Virus record (IMG/VR): IMGVR_UViG_3300042465_002756
Span: 1 to 37,277 of that record
Source: a virus
Reading direction: 5' to 3' (one strand)
DNA length: 37,277 nucleotides
In this document: one piece after another, positions 1 through 36,928 of the stretch
Position numbering within the stretch: the first letter of the stretch is position 1
Layout: the number at the start of each line of letters is the position of its first letter
Position numbers and translations under genes: made by a program
Notes under the pieces: model-generated
Seen by the model: the letters and a program-made list of their open reading frames with translations, nothing else
Told to the model about the DNA's origin: nothing
Database searches by the model: none

Positions 1-127
1 CCTTCTGTTCTGCCATCTCGGCAATCGGGTCCATCTGACACAGACGCCGGAACTCGGTAGGCAGCATTCCTGCCGCTAGCGCCAGCGCGTCGCCTTTTAG
101 ACCTAACTTGGCAGCGTCGTAAATGCG
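1..127. repeat. Left copy of 127-bp terminal overlap
   Basis: Bases 1-127 are identical to 37151-37277. The repeat lies wholly inside the small terminase coding sequence, which reads in frame across the join. A length of exactly 127 is a common maximum assembly k-mer, so this is most simply the overlap left when a circular genome was assembled, not a physical terminal repeat. P22-type phages package by headful and give circularly permuted DNA, which fits. Confidence 0.97.
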
Positions 128-190
128 CTGCAGACGCGCCTCTGTGGCAACCAACGTGCGCGCCGTGAGCGGAAGTGACTGGAAAGTCAT
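1..190 (-). CDS. Terminase small subunit, N-terminal part (continues at 37150)
   Basis: Starting at an ATG on the minus strand (190-188), the frame runs off the window start and continues in the same frame at 37150 of the circle, joining the C-terminal part at 36900-37277. The whole protein is 146 residues and begins MTFQSLPLTARTLVATEARL. The N-terminal half looks helical and fits a DNA-recognition domain, as expected for a TerS that binds the pac site and feeds DNA to the large subunit. A TAA codon directly precedes the ATG in frame, so the start cannot lie further upstream. No Shine-Dalgarno sequence is visible before it, which is unusual in this genome. Function is inferred mainly from position just upstream of the large terminase. 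Confidence 0.8.
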   Translation of the reverse strand, partial: MTFQSLPLTARTLVATEARLQRIYDAAKLGLKGDALALAAGMLPTEFRRLCQMDPIAEMAEQK

Positions 191-298: not shown

Positions 299-400
299 AG
301 GGGTCCGTTTTTGACCGGGCCAGCCGCCGGCCCTGGCCGGGGGCTATCAGCCGACCAGCCCCGATCGACGCAGGCTATCGGCTCCCAGCTGTCAGCTGTT

Positions 401-434
401 ACGTTATAACGTCACGCCAGCATGCCAGGCTGGC
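401..434. other. Cluster of small dyads in the intergenic region
   Basis: A perfect 12-bp palindrome ACGTTATAACGT lies at 401-412, followed by the interrupted dyad GCCAG-G-CTGGC at 424-434. Just upstream, GGCTATC occurs twice (345-351 and 373-379). Nothing here looks coding. The dyads lie between the late promoter and the ATGGGTCA array and may be protein-binding sites of the control region. Confidence 0.4.
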
Positions 435-484
435 GGGCGATGGGTCAAATGGGTCATGGCCCATAAGGTCAAGCTTGCGTGCTA

Positions 485-531
485 ATGGGTCATATGGGTC
501 AACCGTTTTTTAGTTGACCCATATGACCCAT
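485..531. other. Perfect 19-bp stem formed by inverted iteron pairs
   Basis: Bases 485-503 pair perfectly with 513-531, leaving a 9-nt T-rich loop at 504-512. Each arm is made of two ATGGGTCA units in 9-bp register, so one arm is a plus-strand iteron pair and the other its mirror image. The arm at 524-531 also overlaps the next plus-strand copy at 530. It could extrude as a cruciform or form a hairpin on single-stranded DNA. It is not followed by a T-run, so it is not a typical terminator. Confidence 0.8.
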
Positions 532-705
532 GGGTCAAATGGGTCACGACCCATCGCTATCGGTCGCACGCCCTGGAAAAAGGGTTAAAAAGGGCCAAAA
601 AAGCGCGCGCCATGGGGTCAATGGGTCAAATGGGTCACGTGGGTCATGGGTTTTTTTTTGGCGCCAAGAAAACGCGGCGCCACCGTCAGCGCGCCATATT
701 TCTAC

Positions 706-725
706 TACTGTACGGATATACAGTA
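706..725. promoter_or_regulatory. LexA (SOS) box
   Basis: The 20 bases TACTGTACGGATATACAGTA match the LexA operator consensus of gamma- and betaproteobacteria: CTGT (708-711), 8-nt spacer, ACAG (720-723), with matching TA flanks on both sides. The 7-bp arms are perfectly symmetrical. It lies in an AT-rich patch between the iteron array and the rightward early promoter. No strong promoter directly overlaps it. Control of origin firing, of a weak local promoter or of the early operon by host LexA is inferred. Confidence 0.7.
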
Positions 726-877
726 TTTTTAATTATTTGGTTAAACTTAAGAATCAATGACCCATAAGACCCATTCAGAGGGAAAATCGCTCCGCGCAGG
801 CAACCCACGCCAATACCCCTTTGGGATCCCCATGTTTATATTAGGGTTATCTGCTACGCGTTTTGTCGCACGCGTCA

Positions 878-912
878 ATGGGTCACGCAAAAAGCGCTTG
901 CAATGCTATAAA
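878..912 (+). promoter_or_regulatory. Rightward early promoter with iteron over the -35
   Basis: An extended -10, TGC-TATAAA, lies at 904-912, giving a start near 919 and about 50 nt of leader before the ATG at 972. The -35 position has no good match. It is instead occupied by a perfect ATGGGTCA copy at 878-885. A protein binding the iterons could therefore repress this promoter or act as its activator. Confidence 0.55.
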
Positions 913-935
913 TTATGTGGCAAAGTGTTGTTCAC

Positions 936-971: not shown

Positions 972-1325
972 ATGCAAACCGTTACCTTAAAACAGCATCC
1001 TGAGATTCTCCGCGTTATCCGCGCCGCCGATCCTACCTACCGCAAAACGAAGGCGTTTATTTATACCCGCGAGAGTGTCACGCTACACGGCACGTATTGG
1101 GACGGCGGTTCGCGGTCTACCTATACAGCGGTAGAGCTGGCGACGGGCCGCAACAAAGGCGCGCCGCAATACGCGCCGCCTCAATTCGGCGGGCCGCGCC
1201 AAGCGCCTGAAGTGCAAATTCCGCCCGATGTTGTAATTGTCGAAACCGGTACGTTTTGCGGTAAGCCCGCGACGGCTACCGTGTATGTCAATCCCGCCAA
1301 CATGGCGCGCCTGTTAACCGTTTAA
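972..1325 (+). CDS. Conserved phage protein of unknown function
   Basis: This first gene of the rightward early operon encodes 117 residues. The central stretch reads TYWDGGSRSTYTAVELATGR, followed by a proline-rich segment and a C-terminal half containing GTFCGKPATATVYVNP. I recognise this as a protein found repeatedly in phages of Burkholderiales, but no function is known to me. It has no signal peptide and no membrane segment. The start at 972 is set by the GAGGAG ribosome-binding site. Its position next to the candidate origin and before the clamp gene suggests an early or replication-linked role, which is inference only. Confidence 0.8.
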   Translation: MQTVTLKQHPEILRVIRAADPTYRKTKAFIYTRESVTLHGTYWDGGSRSTYTAVELATGRNKGAPQYAPPQFGGPRQAPEVQIPPDVVIVETGTFCGKPATATVYVNPANMARLLTV

Positions 1326-1371: not shown

Positions 1372-1962
1372 ATGAAAATCACCATCGACCACAACATCGC
1401 CAAAGCCCTTTTGATCTGCGCCGCGAAACAAGATATTCGCTACTACCTAAAGGGCATATGCGTCGACGCCCGCGCGAACGGCGACGTTGTCCTTGTCACT
1501 ACCGACGGCCATCGTCTGCTAGCCTATCCCGTCGCCACTGATGCAATCGAAGCGCTCGCGCCCGGTCAGTACATCATCCCGCGCGAGGCGCTCGAGGCGG
1601 TCAAGCCCTGCAAAGCTGGCCGCCACATGCTACCGATCACTATCGAGATTGACACAGCAAAAGGGCTCGAAAACAAGATCACGGGCGCGACGTCAACCGT
1701 TACGCCCCTGATTGACGGTAAATTTCCCGATTGGCGGCGCGTGCTGCCGAAAACGGTATCGGGCGAGCCCGCCCAGTATCAGGCCGAGTACCTTGGTGAT
1801 TTTGGTCGCATCGCCGATTTGCTTGGCACTAAACAGCCGCACATACATTACAACGGCAGCGCAGCGGCGATCGTTGGCAATCTAGGCGCGGCGCTTGGCG
1901 TGCTTATGCCTATGCGCTCTGATGCTGAGTTCTCAGCCCTGCCCGCATGGGCGCTCGCCTGA
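1372..1962 (+). CDS. Shortened DnaN-like sliding clamp (domain II plus half of domain III)
   Basis: The 196-residue protein aligns with the middle and end of bacterial beta clamp. DIRYYLKGI (21-29), TDGHRL (44-49) and FPDWRRVLPK (118-127) match E. coli DnaN domain II; LMPMR (178-182) matches the DnaN C-terminus. Residue 1 falls at the start of DnaN domain II, so domain I is wholly absent. Between FPDWRRVLP and MPMR only about 55 residues remain, so the first half of domain III is also missing. All landmarks of the peptide-binding pocket (GHRL, P and RV of FPDWRRV, MPM) are kept. It could form a higher-order ring like phage T4 gp45, tether the phage polymerase, or act as a decoy that binds host clamp partners. 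A 14-residue tail follows MPMR. GAGGAG precedes the ATG. Confidence 0.88.
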   Translation: MKITIDHNIAKALLICAAKQDIRYYLKGICVDARANGDVVLVTTDGHRLLAYPVATDAIEALAPGQYIIPREALEAVKPCKAGRHMLPITIEIDTAKGLENKITGATSTVTPLIDGKFPDWRRVLPKTVSGEPAQYQAEYLGDFGRIADLLGTKQPHIHYNGSAAAIVGNLGAALGVLMPMRSDAEFSALPAWALA

Positions 1963-10382: not shown

Positions 10383-10699
10383 GCCTTGACGCAATGAAAC
10401 AAGCCTTGGAGGCGTTAGAGCGAGGCGAAACTAAATTGCGCTATGAAGCGATCACCGCTCTCCGCGCTGCAATCGAGCAGGCGCAGGCGCAGGAGCCGGT
10501 GGCGTGGGTATACCCCGAGGGGCTGGAGGCATTGAAAAGCGGCAGACCGTGGACTGCATACGGCAGTAGTGGGGAAGGACGAATTCCTTTGTATCTCAAT
10601 GACGCAGTAGCTCCAAGGGTAGAGCCCCGTTTCGGCGGGAGTGGTGCAGGGTTCGAGTCCCTGCCTGCGTCACCCACCCAACAGGAGAAGAACACATGA
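10379..10699 (+). CDS. Phage protein of unknown function with tRNA-like 3' end
   Basis: The ATG at 10379 overlaps the nuclease stop as ATGA; the ORF encodes 106 residues. The N-terminal part (LDAMKQALEALERGETKL) is helical, and the middle reads EPVAWVYPEGLEALKSGRPW then GRIPLY, a motif common in small phage proteins of unknown role. After IPLYLN the remaining 32 residues are encoded by the tRNA-like sequence at 10601-10672 and its flank, and they look like low-complexity sequence. The original C-terminus was probably near IPLY, with the element inserted or grown into the gene's end. Confidence 0.65.
   Translation: MSLDAMKQALEALERGETKLRYEAITALRAAIEQAQAQEPVAWVYPEGLEALKSGRPWTAYGSSGEGRIPLYLNDAVAPRVEPRFGGSGAGFESLPASPTQQEKNT
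10601..10672 (+). tRNA. tRNA-like sequence, probably defective, anticodon not assignable
   Basis: Acceptor arms GACGCAG (10601-10607) and CTGCGTC (10665-10671) pair perfectly. T8 and A9 follow, then a D arm GCTC...GAGC (10610-10613 with 10622-10625) and a T arm CAGGG-TTCGAGT-CCCTG (10647-10663) with a canonical loop. The anticodon arm is shortened: CCCG (10626-10629), TTTCGG, CGGG (10636-10639), and one extra C lies between T stem and acceptor. The 3' end reads ACCCA, not a clean CCA. It may be a degenerate tRNA, an unusual phage tRNA, or a tRNA mimic. It lies inside the ORF at 10379-10699. Confidence 0.5.
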
Positions 10700-12115: not shown

Positions 12116-12267
12116 ACCGAATGAACGAACGACTCAAGGCCGCTCGAGCAGAGGCGCGCATACGGCAGCGGGAGTTTAACGCCGCCCAGCGCGCGCTCAA
12201 CCGGGTGCTCGCAGACATTGCAAAACTGGAGAAGCGAATTGAGCTTAACTCAAAACCTCGTACGTGA
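12112..12267 (+). CDS. Small basic coiled-coil protein (51 aa)
   Basis: The ATG overlaps the helicase stop as ATGA. The product is one long charged helix rich in Arg, Ala, Glu and Leu (ERLKAARAEARIRQREF), predicted to form a coiled coil. Similar tiny proteins commonly follow SNF2-like helicases in phage genomes. Its function is unknown. The last 29 bases overlap the start of the homing endonuclease gene, which suggests the latter was inserted into an existing tight gene array. Confidence 0.65.
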   Translation: MNRMNERLKAARAEARIRQREFNAAQRALNRVLADIAKLEKRIELNSKPRT

Positions 12268-12724
12268 ACTGTTTGAGTACCAAAATGGCGCGTTGCATTG
12301 GCGCGTAAGCCCGGCAAAGACTGTTTGCTCTGGCGATGCTGCCGGTTTTATGCAAGGCAATGGGTACCGAGGCGTAGTCATAAACCGCAAAATATACCCG
12401 CTGCACCGCGTAATATTTTTGCACCACCACGGGTATTTACCCGAGATAGTAGACCACGCAGACGGCAATATTTTGAACAACACGATAGAAAATTTGCGCG
12501 CCGCCACAATAGCTACTAACGGTGCTAACCGAAAAGTAGGCCGGAACAATTCATCGGGCGTAAAAAATGTCACTTGGGACAAACTTTCTGGGAAGTGGCA
12601 CGTTAGGCTGCAAAAGAATAAGCGTAGCTATTATTTTGGTGCGTACTGTGCATTAAAAGACGCCGCCGATGTAGCTATGCAAGCACGAAACATGATGTAC
12701 GGCGAATTTGCGAGGCACTTATGA
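12239..12724 (+). CDS. HNH homing endonuclease with AP2 DNA-binding domain
   Basis: The start is TTG at 12239, with GGAG at 12228-12231 seven bases before, giving 161 residues beginning (M)SLTQNLVRELFEY, the usual beginning of this family. The HNH core reads LHRVIFLHHHGYLP and VDHADGNILNNTIENLRAAT. The C-terminal SGVKNVTWDKLSGKWHVRL and YFGAY segments are a typical AP2 domain. Such enzymes cut specific DNA and spread themselves by repair. Its sequence is visibly richer in A and T than its neighbours, supporting recent transfer. Its stop overlaps the next ATG. Confidence 0.9.
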   Translation: MSLTQNLVRELFEYQNGALHWRVSPAKTVCSGDAAGFMQGNGYRGVVINRKIYPLHRVIFLHHHGYLPEIVDHADGNILNNTIENLRAATIATNGANRKVGRNNSSGVKNVTWDKLSGKWHVRLQKNKRSYYFGAYCALKDAADVAMQARNMMYGEFARHL

Positions 12725-32204: not shown

Positions 32205-34336
32205 TGCGGTACTCCTTGCATCGCCATCTGCTGTTGAGCGACCACCATATCACCGGCTGTCATCACGTCTTTTAGCGTCTGCATGACCACGTCTTGCACC
32301 TGATCAGGCGTCATACTGCTGGAAACTGCCTGGATTCGCTTAGTTTCAGCATTGTACTCGTCGATGCGCAGTTTTTGGGCTTCCATCGACTTGCCGACGT
32401 TTTGCAGCATGTTATACATCTGCTCCATCTGCGCTTGCATCACCTGAATCTGCTGATTGGCCGCTTGCAGCGCAGGATCGTCCTCGTCCTGCAGCAGTTT
32501 GGGGTCGATCATCTTCTTCAGACGCTCGGCCAGCTCCTGCGCTCCCGGCCAATCCATGTTCTTAACAAACAAATCGCCCGCCGCAGCCCACAGGTTCGGA
32601 TTGCCTTGCAGAATCTGGCTCATCGCGTCCATCGACTCCTGGCGCTTGGTCAGATAGCTCGGGCCAACCGTGACCTTGACGTCATACTTACCAACGCCAG
32701 GGTTGTAAATCTTCTGCACCACAACACCGGCTTCGTTCACCATCTTTCGCACGGGTTCCGGCTGGTTCGGATCAAGCCGCACCATGTCAGAGTTGCCATC
32801 GACCTGAATAATCCGCGCAATCCGAGGCGTATCATAGATTTTGGGGATCAAATCGACCAGTTGACGGCCTACGTAACGGATTGCTCGCGCGTAGTTATCG
32901 ACGTAATGGTAGGTGCCGACGTCGCCCTCACGCTGACGGGCCAAAATAGCCCGTCCAGAGCGCTCGTTTGAGGTCATCCCAAGGCTTGCGTTGTACTGCC
33001 CTGTAGCCGCTTTAATGTCTTCTGACGCGCCCATTTTGGCCTGAATTAGGCCTGTTTGGGCCATTGGCGGCTGTGCGCGCTGCGGAAGCGGCAAAATGTT
33101 ACCGGCACCGTCTGTTACGTCTGGATTGACCTCCAAATACGGGTAATTCGTCGTATTTGCGGTCTTCCACTTCTCTTCGTAGCCCTCAAACTGACCGCCG
33201 TAGCCAATAAACGGTGCTTTTGGCGCTAGCGCCAGCATTTCCGCTTCTTGGCTCACCCAGTAGTTGTACATCCGCTGGGCATCTTTAGCGTTTCTGACCA
33301 AACCTGAAATCTCAAGCTGGCCTTCAATGTTCCATTCGTTGCCGATAACGCGAATAACAGGGATGTACGACCCCGCCCAGTCGCGTTCTTCGATGATCTC
33401 GTAGCCGTTGGTCTTGCACCACTTGATCTTCTTACGTTGCACCTTGCGCTGACGGCTAGGTCTTAGACCCATTTCGCGCATCATCTTGTCTTGCGGGGTG
33501 CCTTGGAACGTCGTGGTGCCGTCCGGATACAGATTCAGCGTAGCAGGCGTGTAATCGCAGTAGAAATATTCTGCAATCCTCACCGTCATCTCGCCCAGCC
33601 ACTGCGACAGCGACTGGTCGCCTACGCCTTGCGTCATAATCGAGCTGACCGGCATAGCGTTGGGGTACAAGCGCTCATATTCGGTTTTCAGGATGTCTTC
33701 GGTGATGAAACACCACTCTGCATCCGCACCGCACGGGTCTTGGATCGTCGGGTCCATGTAGACCGAAAAGCTGTTCCGCACGCGCCCGATCTTGATGTCC
33801 TGATCAAAGCTTGTTTCGTCGCAATATTCGGTGAGAATCCGAATGTAACCCTCGCCAAACGTCACCTGGTTGTCGCACGCAGTGTCGTAGGCCACGTCAG
33901 CGTTAGAAATGTACTCAATGTGACGGATCATGCCGTCAAAAATCTCAGCAACCTCAACGTCCGCCTTGTCGTCGGCTGGGATGACGTTAGGCGACGGCCT
34001 GTTTTGCCGCTGCTCGTTAGTCACCTGGCGCACGTGTTGCGGCAGCTTGTTGATTGTCAAGCATGGCCTGGCGTTGATCGTCTGCCCGCTAACCGACCCG
34101 CGCACTGACAGCACGTCTGCCGGCCACTGGTAGTGGTTGTCCGGCGAGCCTGCCATAAACCGCAAGTCGTCCAACTGATCTTCGCGCGTATCACTGTATG
34201 CGCTTACAGCGGTTTTAAACCGCTGACGCATTTCTGACAGCCGATGCGAGTCGCTCTTTTTAGCGTGCTCGCCCTCATCGCCGCCTACATCCGCGACGTA
34301 GGCTGCCCCAGCCATGCCTGTTTGATCGTAAGCCAT
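32201..34336 (-). CDS. Portal protein, P22 gp1-like
   Basis: The 711-residue protein has KTAVSAYSDTREDQLDDLRF near the N-terminus and NHYQWPADV and NKLPQHVRQVTNEQRQNRPS, typical of P22-like portals. GYIRILTEYCDETSFDQDI and FSVYMDPTIQDPCGADAEWC follow, and the middle has ATGQYNASLGMTSNERSGRA. The C-terminus (about 630-711) is Gln/Met-rich and helical and would form the barrel. Twelve copies make the DNA channel at one head vertex, where terminase and the gp4-like connector bind. The ATG overlaps the preceding stop as TAATG. Confidence 0.93.
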   Translation of the reverse strand: MAYDQTGMAGAAYVADVGGDEGEHAKKSDSHRLSEMRQRFKTAVSAYSDTREDQLDDLRFMAGSPDNHYQWPADVLSVRGSVSGQTINARPCLTINKLPQHVRQVTNEQRQNRPSPNVIPADDKADVEVAEIFDGMIRHIEYISNADVAYDTACDNQVTFGEGYIRILTEYCDETSFDQDIKIGRVRNSFSVYMDPTIQDPCGADAEWCFITEDILKTEYERLYPNAMPVSSIMTQGVGDQSLSQWLGEMTVRIAEYFYCDYTPATLNLYPDGTTTFQGTPQDKMMREMGLRPSRQRKVQRKKIKWCKTNGYEIIEERDWAGSYIPVIRVIGNEWNIEGQLEISGLVRNAKDAQRMYNYWVSQEAEMLALAPKAPFIGYGGQFEGYEEKWKTANTTNYPYLEVNPDVTDGAGNILPLPQRAQPPMAQTGLIQAKMGASEDIKAATGQYNASLGMTSNERSGRAILARQREGDVGTYHYVDNYARAIRYVGRQLVDLIPKIYDTPRIARIIQVDGNSDMVRLDPNQPEPVRKMVNEAGVVVQKIYNPGVGKYDVKVTVGPSYLTKRQESMDAMSQILQGNPNLWAAAGDLFVKNMDWPGAQELAERLKKMIDPKLLQDEDDPALQAANQQIQVMQAQMEQMYNMLQNVGKSMEAQKLRIDEYNAETKRIQAVSSSMTPDQVQDVVMQTLKDVMTAGDMVVAQQQMAMQGVPQ

Positions 34337-35138: not shown

Positions 35139-35402
35139 TCAGCATTTCCATCGTTTGAGTGACGCTTTAGCGCGCTCTGCGTCGCCTTTGGCATTCCTGA
35201 CAACGCCTGACATGCGGGCGCAGAAGGATGCTTTGCGGCCTTTGTCAGCTTCAGTCTTCGGGTTGGGCGCGGGCGCTTTGAGGTTGCTGCCGGTGGCTGC
35301 GTTGTACTTGGCTCGGCCTTTGGCTGTCAGGCCAGCTCCCTTGGACACGGGCAGCTTCTCGCCGCGCCCCACTGCCAGACTGACAGATTTCTTCGTCGCC
35401 AT
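35139..35402 (-). CDS. Conserved basic phage protein (DUF6321-like, 87 aa)
   Basis: The product reads SVSLAVGRGEKLPVSKGAGL, then TAKGRAKYNAATGSNLKAPA, ASFCARMSGVVRNAKGDAER and ends LKRWKC. This is a widespread, strongly conserved phage protein usually encoded beside the terminase. Its function is unknown, although the high Lys/Arg content suggests nucleic-acid contact. The ATG at 35402 overlaps the terminase stop as TGATG and is preferred to the GTG at 35405. Confidence 0.82.
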   Translation of the reverse strand: MATKKSVSLAVGRGEKLPVSKGAGLTAKGRAKYNAATGSNLKAPAPNPKTEADKGRKASFCARMSGVVRNAKGDAERAKASLKRWKC

Positions 35403-36928
35403 CACGCACCCATCCAGCTTGTAGCGCCCGATGAGCGGTCTGCGTAGGTCTTGCGGATGTTGGCGATGCGTGGCTCACGGCTGGCGACCGGATAGGCAAA
35501 CGTCACGGCAATCGCGTCCGCCGCGTCGGGTGATGCTAGACCCCTGGCTTTCATATCTTTCTTGCTCTCCAAGAAGATTGTACCGCTCGAGTCTGGCTTG
35601 GTCTTGGGGCCGGTCAGGTCCGCTTTGAGCTGCCTGTCTGGCGCAATACTAGCCGTCTTTAGCCAGTCTCGCATCGCACCCCACAGCTCCGCGCGCTTGT
35701 TGCCCCACATAATCTGGTTCTTGGCTTTCCAGCCAAAGTTTACCCCACGCACCTTATACCGCTGTTCAACCAGCCGGTCAAGTATTCCATACCCCAACCC
35801 GCCTTCGTCAATCACCGTCAGCGTCGGCTTGTACTCCTCGATCGCGTCGATGACGTGCCCTACGGTCGTCATCGTGTCATCGCCCCGATACCGCTTGATT
35901 GCGATAATGTCTCGACCTTGCCTGACCGCAATGACTGTCGAGTCACCGCCTGACCTGGCCGGGTCAATCCCGATCACAATCGGTGCTGTCTCGTCTTTGT
36001 GCTTAGCGCGGCCAAAGGCGGCATCTACTATGGAAGGTCCGATAAACTGATCGTCGCCTGCGCTCGGGAACTCCCCAAACACCTCGACCTTGGCCTGTAT
36101 CGAGTCCTCGCCGTACTCCGCGATGATCTGCTCGTATATCTGCTTGTCGGTGCCCTCTACGTCGCGGGCGTCGATGTTCTCTGTTACCCAGAAGTCGCGC
36201 TTACTGTTAAAGCACTCGAAGAAGTAGCCTTGGTTGCGCCGGGGGTTGCTAAACGCGCACCAGAAGCGATGCGGCGTGTTCTCGGTAAAGAACCCCTGCG
36301 CTACGTCCCAGATCGGGTCTGGAATACCGGACGCCTCATCAAAGATCAGCAGCACCCCGTCGCTGTTGTGCAGACCGGCGTAAGCGTCCGGGTTTTCTTC
36401 TGACCACAGACGCCCCTCGACCGACCAGAAGCGCGTGCCCTTCTTTAGATCGCGCTCGACAATCTCAGCCAACCACTTGGCTGGCGTCACGCGCGTTGCG
36501 CTGATCTCGAACCAATGGCTGTTAATCATCATAGCCAGCCACTTGGTAATCTCAGACCAGGTAATGCTGCGGAGCTGCGCTTCGCTGTTAGCTGACACAA
36601 TCGTGGTGCTGCCGATTCGCGTGGACAGCATCCACAGTATCAGCCAAGACACCAGCGCCGACTTACCGATCCCACGGCCAGAGGCCACCGCCAGCCGAAA
36701 GACGTTGTAGTCGACGCGCCCGCCGTTGTCTTTGATGTGCTGAGTGATCTGCCGCAGAATCTTGCGCTGCCATTTGCGCGGGCCTGCATAGTGTTCTAGC
36801 GGCGTGCCCTTCTGGCCCCACGGAAACGCGAACAACACAAACGCTTCTGGGTCGTCTTTAATGCGCGGCTGCCAGAGCCGCACCATCAAAGTCTGTTCGT
36901 CAGATGCGCTGTAGATTGGCTGCTGCAA
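35402..36928 (-). CDS. Terminase large subunit
   Basis: The 508-residue motor protein has an ATPase domain with Walker A GRGIGKS (84-90) and Walker B LLIFDEAS (193-200), and a C-terminal RNase H-like nuclease beginning IGIDPARSGGDSTVI (319-333, Asp322). It pumps DNA through the portal and cuts headful lengths. The start codon is TTG (36928) with GGAG (36939-36936) seven bases before. It overlaps the end of the small terminase gene by 29 bases. N-terminal sequence FAFPWGQKGTPLEHYAGPRK is common in P22-group large terminases. Confidence 0.95.
   Translation of the reverse strand: MQQPIYSASDEQTLMVRLWQPRIKDDPEAFVLFAFPWGQKGTPLEHYAGPRKWQRKILRQITQHIKDNGGRVDYNVFRLAVASGRGIGKSALVSWLILWMLSTRIGSTTIVSANSEAQLRSITWSEITKWLAMMINSHWFEISATRVTPAKWLAEIVERDLKKGTRFWSVEGRLWSEENPDAYAGLHNSDGVLLIFDEASGIPDPIWDVAQGFFTENTPHRFWCAFSNPRRNQGYFFECFNSKRDFWVTENIDARDVEGTDKQIYEQIIAEYGEDSIQAKVEVFGEFPSAGDDQFIGPSIVDAAFGRAKHKDETAPIVIGIDPARSGGDSTVIAVRQGRDIIAIKRYRGDDTMTTVGHVIDAIEEYKPTLTVIDEGGLGYGILDRLVEQRYKVRGVNFGWKAKNQIMWGNKRAELWGAMRDWLKTASIAPDRQLKADLTGPKTKPDSSGTIFLESKKDMKARGLASPDAADAIAVTFAYPVASREPRIANIRKTYADRSSGATSWMGA

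Follow-up and report, generated by a model that had tools for sequence, protein, structure and literature searches.

The window, by which we mean the entire 37,277-bp stretch analyzed here (positions 1-37,277 of IMG/VR record IMGVR_UViG_3300042465_002756), carries a 127-bp repeat at both ends and is, because of this terminal repeat, a complete circular P22-like podovirus genome of 37,150 bp. Since 127 is also a k-mer length that assemblers commonly use, the repeat probably arose during assembly of a genome that is circular or circularly permuted. Encoded proteins include a P22-like portal and coat, terminase, primase-helicase, family A polymerase, exonuclease, SNF2-like helicase, and endolysin. 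The terminase small subunit (TerS) gene starts at position 190 and heads a long leftward block of structural and lysis genes, the early genes run rightward from position 972, and a LexA box is placed between them. The features considered below are listed here.

1-190, minus strand: start of the TerS gene, which crosses the circular junction and continues to 36900
398-415, no strand assigned: second, family-specific palindrome GTTACGTTATAACGTCAC, which some boxless relatives have at the LexA position
441-646, plus strand: left iteron array, with TGGGTCA at 441, 450, 486, 495, 531, 540, 622, 631, and 640
706-725, no strand assigned: near-consensus LexA (SOS) operator TACTGTACGGATATACAGTA, recurring in relatives with invariant half-sites
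722-750, minus strand: possible leftward promoter, with a -10-like AATACT (722-727) overlapping the box and a -35-like TTAAGT (745-750)
758-773, minus strand: inverted iteron pair on the right, at a distance of 32 bp from the box
879-885, plus strand: single iteron beside the early promoter
898-926, plus strand: early rightward sigma70-like promoter TTGCAA-N17-CAAAGT, weak in the window and TTGACA-type in relatives
972-1325, plus strand: first early gene, 117 aa, function unassigned, varying among relatives
1372-1962, plus strand: short sliding-clamp-like protein, 196 aa
3623-5956, minus strand: primase-helicase, with a RepB-primase-like N half and a DUF5906 helicase C half
35402-36928, minus strand: terminase large subunit (TerL), the query for finding relatives

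The sliding-clamp-like protein (1372-1962) has approximately half the length of the bacterial beta clamp. Its family is labeled RusA-like resolvase in PHROGs, which is probably a mislabel.

The LexA box and its conservation

The earlier note had read positions 706-725 as a LexA box deviating only in the spacer, and both the position and the deviation were verified: TACTGTACGGATATACAGTA differs from the SOS consensus TACTGTATATATATACAGTA at three positions, all within the spacer. The features of an E. coli-type operator are present, namely the CTGT-N8-ACAG core, the extended TACTGT...ACAGTA, and an AT-rich spacer. An equally good match to TACTGTATATATATACAGTA was found neither elsewhere in the window nor in 100 dinucleotide shuffles, which bears out the view that this is not a chance match in 37 kb. 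The looser CTGT-N8-ACAG occurs twice in the window against 0.36 expected. The second occurrence (34194-34209) was rejected as an operator; it lies within the portal gene and is shared by the relative G001, and thus reflects coding conservation. The exact 20-mer TACTGTACGGATATACAGTA is present in 30 IMG/VR stretches, many of them from unrelated phages, while its reversed, uncomplemented form, used as a control, is present in none.

Relatives were gathered by TerL and clamp searches, and counts are based on the 58 related IMG/VR TerL loci having sequence at the box region. A search for CTGT-N8-ACAG at the same place, as the earlier note had proposed, found it 600-1150 bp upstream of TerL in 23 of these 58 loci. 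Five control motifs with the same architecture were found in the same region of 0, 0, 0, 0, and 2 loci, respectively, and the LexA core is rare in other parts of the 58 loci. About 60% of the sampled relatives have no box, and it is also absent from Phage DSL-LC05, a Manatee Spring contig, and Rhodoferax phage P26218.

In an alignment of 18 distinct loci anchored at the box, both half-sites, CTGT and ACAG, were invariant (2.0 bits per column) and the flanks were mostly unconserved, with information mostly below 0.5 bits elsewhere. Outside the half-sites, conservation was confined to a TA immediately right of the box, on one side only, and to the inverted repeats. Several relatives carry the perfect consensus TACTGTATATATATACAGTA, and a genome usually has a single box, located at the origin. 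In L039, the closest boxed relative (95% nucleotide identity around TerL), the 20-mer is unchanged despite differing bases on its left. Judged from these alignments, the box is under selection at a fixed place, with conserved half-sites against diverged flanks. The combined results make it very probable that the operator at 706-725 is real.

Iterons and alternative sequences at the box position

The TGGGTCA copies of the left array follow a 9-bp period, with inverted copies at 515 and 524. The distance from the end of the box to the inverted pair on its right was 29-34 bp in all 19 boxed loci measured. Relatives show the same layout with other heptamers (GGGGTAG, TGGGCAA, and TAGGTCA). Iterons spaced by 9 bp with differing heptamers can be seen at 441-885 of the window and in relatives L040, L073, and L078.

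The primase-helicase is a recombinant mosaic. Its N half is 93-100% identical to that of the GGGGTAG-type relative G004 in most 60-residue blocks, while its C half is about 95% identical to the GGGTCA-type relatives G001 and G003 and 46-71% identical to G004. This pattern indicates that the iteron type travels with the helicase half; the polymerase showed no corresponding split by iteron type. Part of this covariation could be due to linkage, but the window and G003 do not share the early genes that separate the iterons from the primase-helicase. The protein p221, encoded beside the primase-helicase, is common to both GGGTCA-type relatives and lacks a counterpart in GGGGTAG types, so that p221 and the helicase half are competing candidates for the iteron binder. 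The covariation of the iterons with the C half supports a replication origin, and the region around the box is probably that origin. The earlier note had put the box between a putative origin and the early promoter, which is roughly correct, but the box is better placed inside the repeat region, between 441-646 and 758-773. In origins of the P4 alpha type, too, a primase-helicase goes together with short iterons in direct and inverted orientation. The window phage shares these elements and differs in its 9-bp-spaced heptamers, which switch sequence between relatives, and in the LexA box inside them.

The distribution of the box argues for repeated gain or loss. In a 62-row TerL tree, the 24 boxed rows are scattered over deep clades, and 14 changes are required, 12 of them forced by well-supported branches. 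L067 has a TerL identical to that of the window over 406 aa, but its control region is boxless and approximately 90% identical to those of L041 and L047. Such a combination suggests that the control region has been exchanged by recombination. Absence of the box from close relatives had been named in the earlier note as evidence against its proposal. Several close relatives are indeed boxless, including the one with identical TerL; however, the slot holds another sequence there, so the site is exchangeable and not universal.

The box position of L086 and L052 is taken up by an 18-bp palindrome of the GTTAYGTTATAACRTAAC type, 31-33 bp before the inverted repeats (counted by hand on the sequences). 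With up to three mismatches allowed, control regions totaling 79 kb contained 17 matches to this palindrome, and the 364 kb outside them contained none. Its exact form occurs in 26 viral contigs, 22 of which carry TerS and TerL of the window's phage family, and the window itself holds a near copy at 398-415. The palindrome was absent from 120 Comamonadaceae genomes, and a literature search found no mention of it; it is therefore probably the site of a phage regulator. The family-specific palindrome GTTACGTTATAACGTAAC (window 398-415; L183-L208) lies close to TerS in many relatives. The boxless L055 has a different palindrome, TGCCTA-N5-TAGGCA, upstream of TerL and approximately at the slot. 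Possibly, the origin contains an exchangeable operator slot into which recombination plugs a site bound either by host LexA or by a different regulator specific to the phage. Such a slot would allow the signal gating origin firing and lysis to be switched with the remaining genome unchanged.

Hosts and lifestyle

TerL relatives were found in metagenome-assembled genomes (MAGs) of Rhodoferax, Burkholderiales, a betaproteobacterium, and two other bins, and the hosts are probably freshwater Burkholderiales. Genes such as umuD and imuA are typical LexA targets. Three betaproteobacterial genomes were searched, and in two of them, both Burkholderiales MAGs holding phage relatives, the same operator lies directly before umuD-like and imuA-like genes, as named by reading their sequences. 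The MAG contigs with TerL relatives were considered as proof of lysogeny and rejected, as they are boxless and look like phage contigs. All eight MAG contigs with relatives lacked the box, and no boxed lysogen or carrier copy was found among them.

The phage had been described as having no recognisable integrase or repressor, and this description holds. Matches to tyrosine integrase (PF00589), S24 repressor (PF00717), ParA (PF13614), and serine resolvase (PF00239) were absent from 21 records, some of them incomplete, in a search of families detectable by Pfam models. HTH_3 had no match in the window and matched in four relatives. The partition system expected of a phage-plasmid (ParA) was thus also missing from the 21 records. 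The absence of integrase and repressor fits an apparently lytic phage without proving it.

Proposed role of LexA

Measured from the start of the box, the early rightward promoter is found about 200-235 bp to the right; in the window the distance is about 190 bp. About half of the boxed loci show a leftward -10-like TATACT or AATACT that overlaps the box, and the matrix scores of this leftward promoter are moderate in several relatives and weak in the window. A stricter scan gave no promoter in the window's control region, so the assignments come from a weaker matrix scan. LexA at the box would most simply block the leftward promoter, toward TerS and across the iterons. A point against LexA control in the window is that the strong early promoter stands about 190 bp off and the overlapping leftward one is weak.

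The earlier note had proposed that host DNA damage may control origin use or early expression. Conservation at a fixed place, E. coli-type operators in the likely hosts, and covariation of the iterons with the replication protein speak for this proposal; against it, LexA may act on the leftward (late-side) promoter instead of the early one. A genuine LexA operator, situated where it could affect the use of the origin or early expression, is well supported, and a regulatory role via host LexA is likely. That host LexA represses a promoter or origin at 706-725 until DNA damage occurs is, on balance, the reading we favor. In an undamaged host, LexA on the box would hold down the overlapping promoter or the firing of the adjacent iteron origin. 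DNA damage would lead to RecA-driven cleavage of LexA and release of the box, and lytic development would then proceed or accelerate. LexA binding, repression, and the direction of the affected promoter are steps that we infer, and the outcome may be deferment of lysis, extrachromosomal lysogeny, or a carrier state, the last of which the earlier note had raised together with pseudolysogeny. The recurrence of the box at the same spot in many relatives suggests that phage development is timed by the state of host DNA.

An alternative is that control by the box is limited to an accessory or DNA-repair function, such as an SOS-inducible extra gene, and leaves phage development untouched. The first early genes are variable, small, and moron-like, and SOS boxes of other phages often serve single accessory genes. 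However, the box persists while the downstream genes change, and its spacing is tied to the iterons and to no gene start, which makes this alternative unlikely. LexA titration is also improbable. Here the box would be a decoy, and replicating phage copies would soak up LexA and induce SOS for the benefit of the phage. The perfect consensus boxes of several relatives are consistent with a decoy, and with one box per genome at the origin its dosage would rise during replication. A single box in a fixed slot with fixed iteron spacing, and a conserved TA on one side only, nevertheless fit a regulatory site better. We give little credence to a palindrome bound by a phage protein or by a non-LexA host factor of similar sequence preference. 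Different palindromes, including GTTAYGTTATAACRTAAC, can fill the same slot, and phage proteins may act there, as GTTAYGTTATAACRTAAC is not in the 120 Comamonadaceae genomes. Against such a binder, the match to the SOS consensus includes the spacer, none of the 21 phage records encodes an S24 or LexA-like protein, and the likely hosts use the same operator. Chance, or an AT-rich palindrome kept purely for structure, is scarcely credible: AT-rich origin regions commonly contain palindromes, but control palindromes of equal make-up show no enrichment, the reversed 20-mer scored 0 against 30 for TACTGTACGGATATACAGTA, and the half-sites are invariant across clades.

Control by host LexA would relate these phages to several known systems. 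In 186 tum and CTXphi, LexA controls antirepressor or replication genes. Phages with such genes have been cited as a class (PMC9437464). As in our proposal, a host LexA site turns on a phage function after DNA damage, but that class has integration functions and its own repressor, neither of which was found in the window phage. Bacillus phage GIL01 has no integrase or repressor of its own, and host LexA serves its lysogeny and SOS induction (PMC4551915). GIL01 and the window phage are alike in that neither has a recognisable damage-sensitive repressor of its own or means of chromosomal integration, and in both the early control region contains a host LexA box. The genome of GIL01 is linear and 15 kb long, its host is Gram-positive, and its box, CGAAC-N4-GTTCG, lies in the mapped promoter P1 (PMC4551915), whereas the window phage has a Gram-negative-type box among origin iterons. 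In the window, only the weak leftward promoter overlaps the box, unlike the overlap with an early promoter in the GIL01 type. Lysogeny has been shown for GIL01, with gp7 as co-factor (PMC4551915), and none is known for the window phage. In CtrA phages of Alphaproteobacteria and in phi29 with Spo0A, operators of host regulators lie in promoter regions, and a delay of lysis has been proposed (PMC9437464). These phages are likewise apparently lytic with operators for a host regulator; in the window phage the regulator would be LexA and the signal DNA damage, with one site per genome, at the origin. Host-LexA-controlled phages are thus already known from GIL01, and what differs here is the phage group, the box among origin iterons, and the possibly exchangeable slot.

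If LexA gates these phages, a large freshwater group usually counted as obligately lytic would respond to host DNA damage, for example from sunlight UV, and would sense it without integrase or repressor genes. Lifestyle predictions from such genes would miss this gating, and a lysis-deferring or carrier state would become directly testable.

Two smaller observations concern other parts of the window. Positions 10601-10672 resemble a tRNA in having an acceptor stem of 7 bp and a T arm, but for this element ARAGORN reported no tRNA and Rfam gave only a weak mascRNA match, below the cut-off. The HNH endonuclease encoded at 12218-12724 carries an AP2 domain and is likely to be of the homing type.
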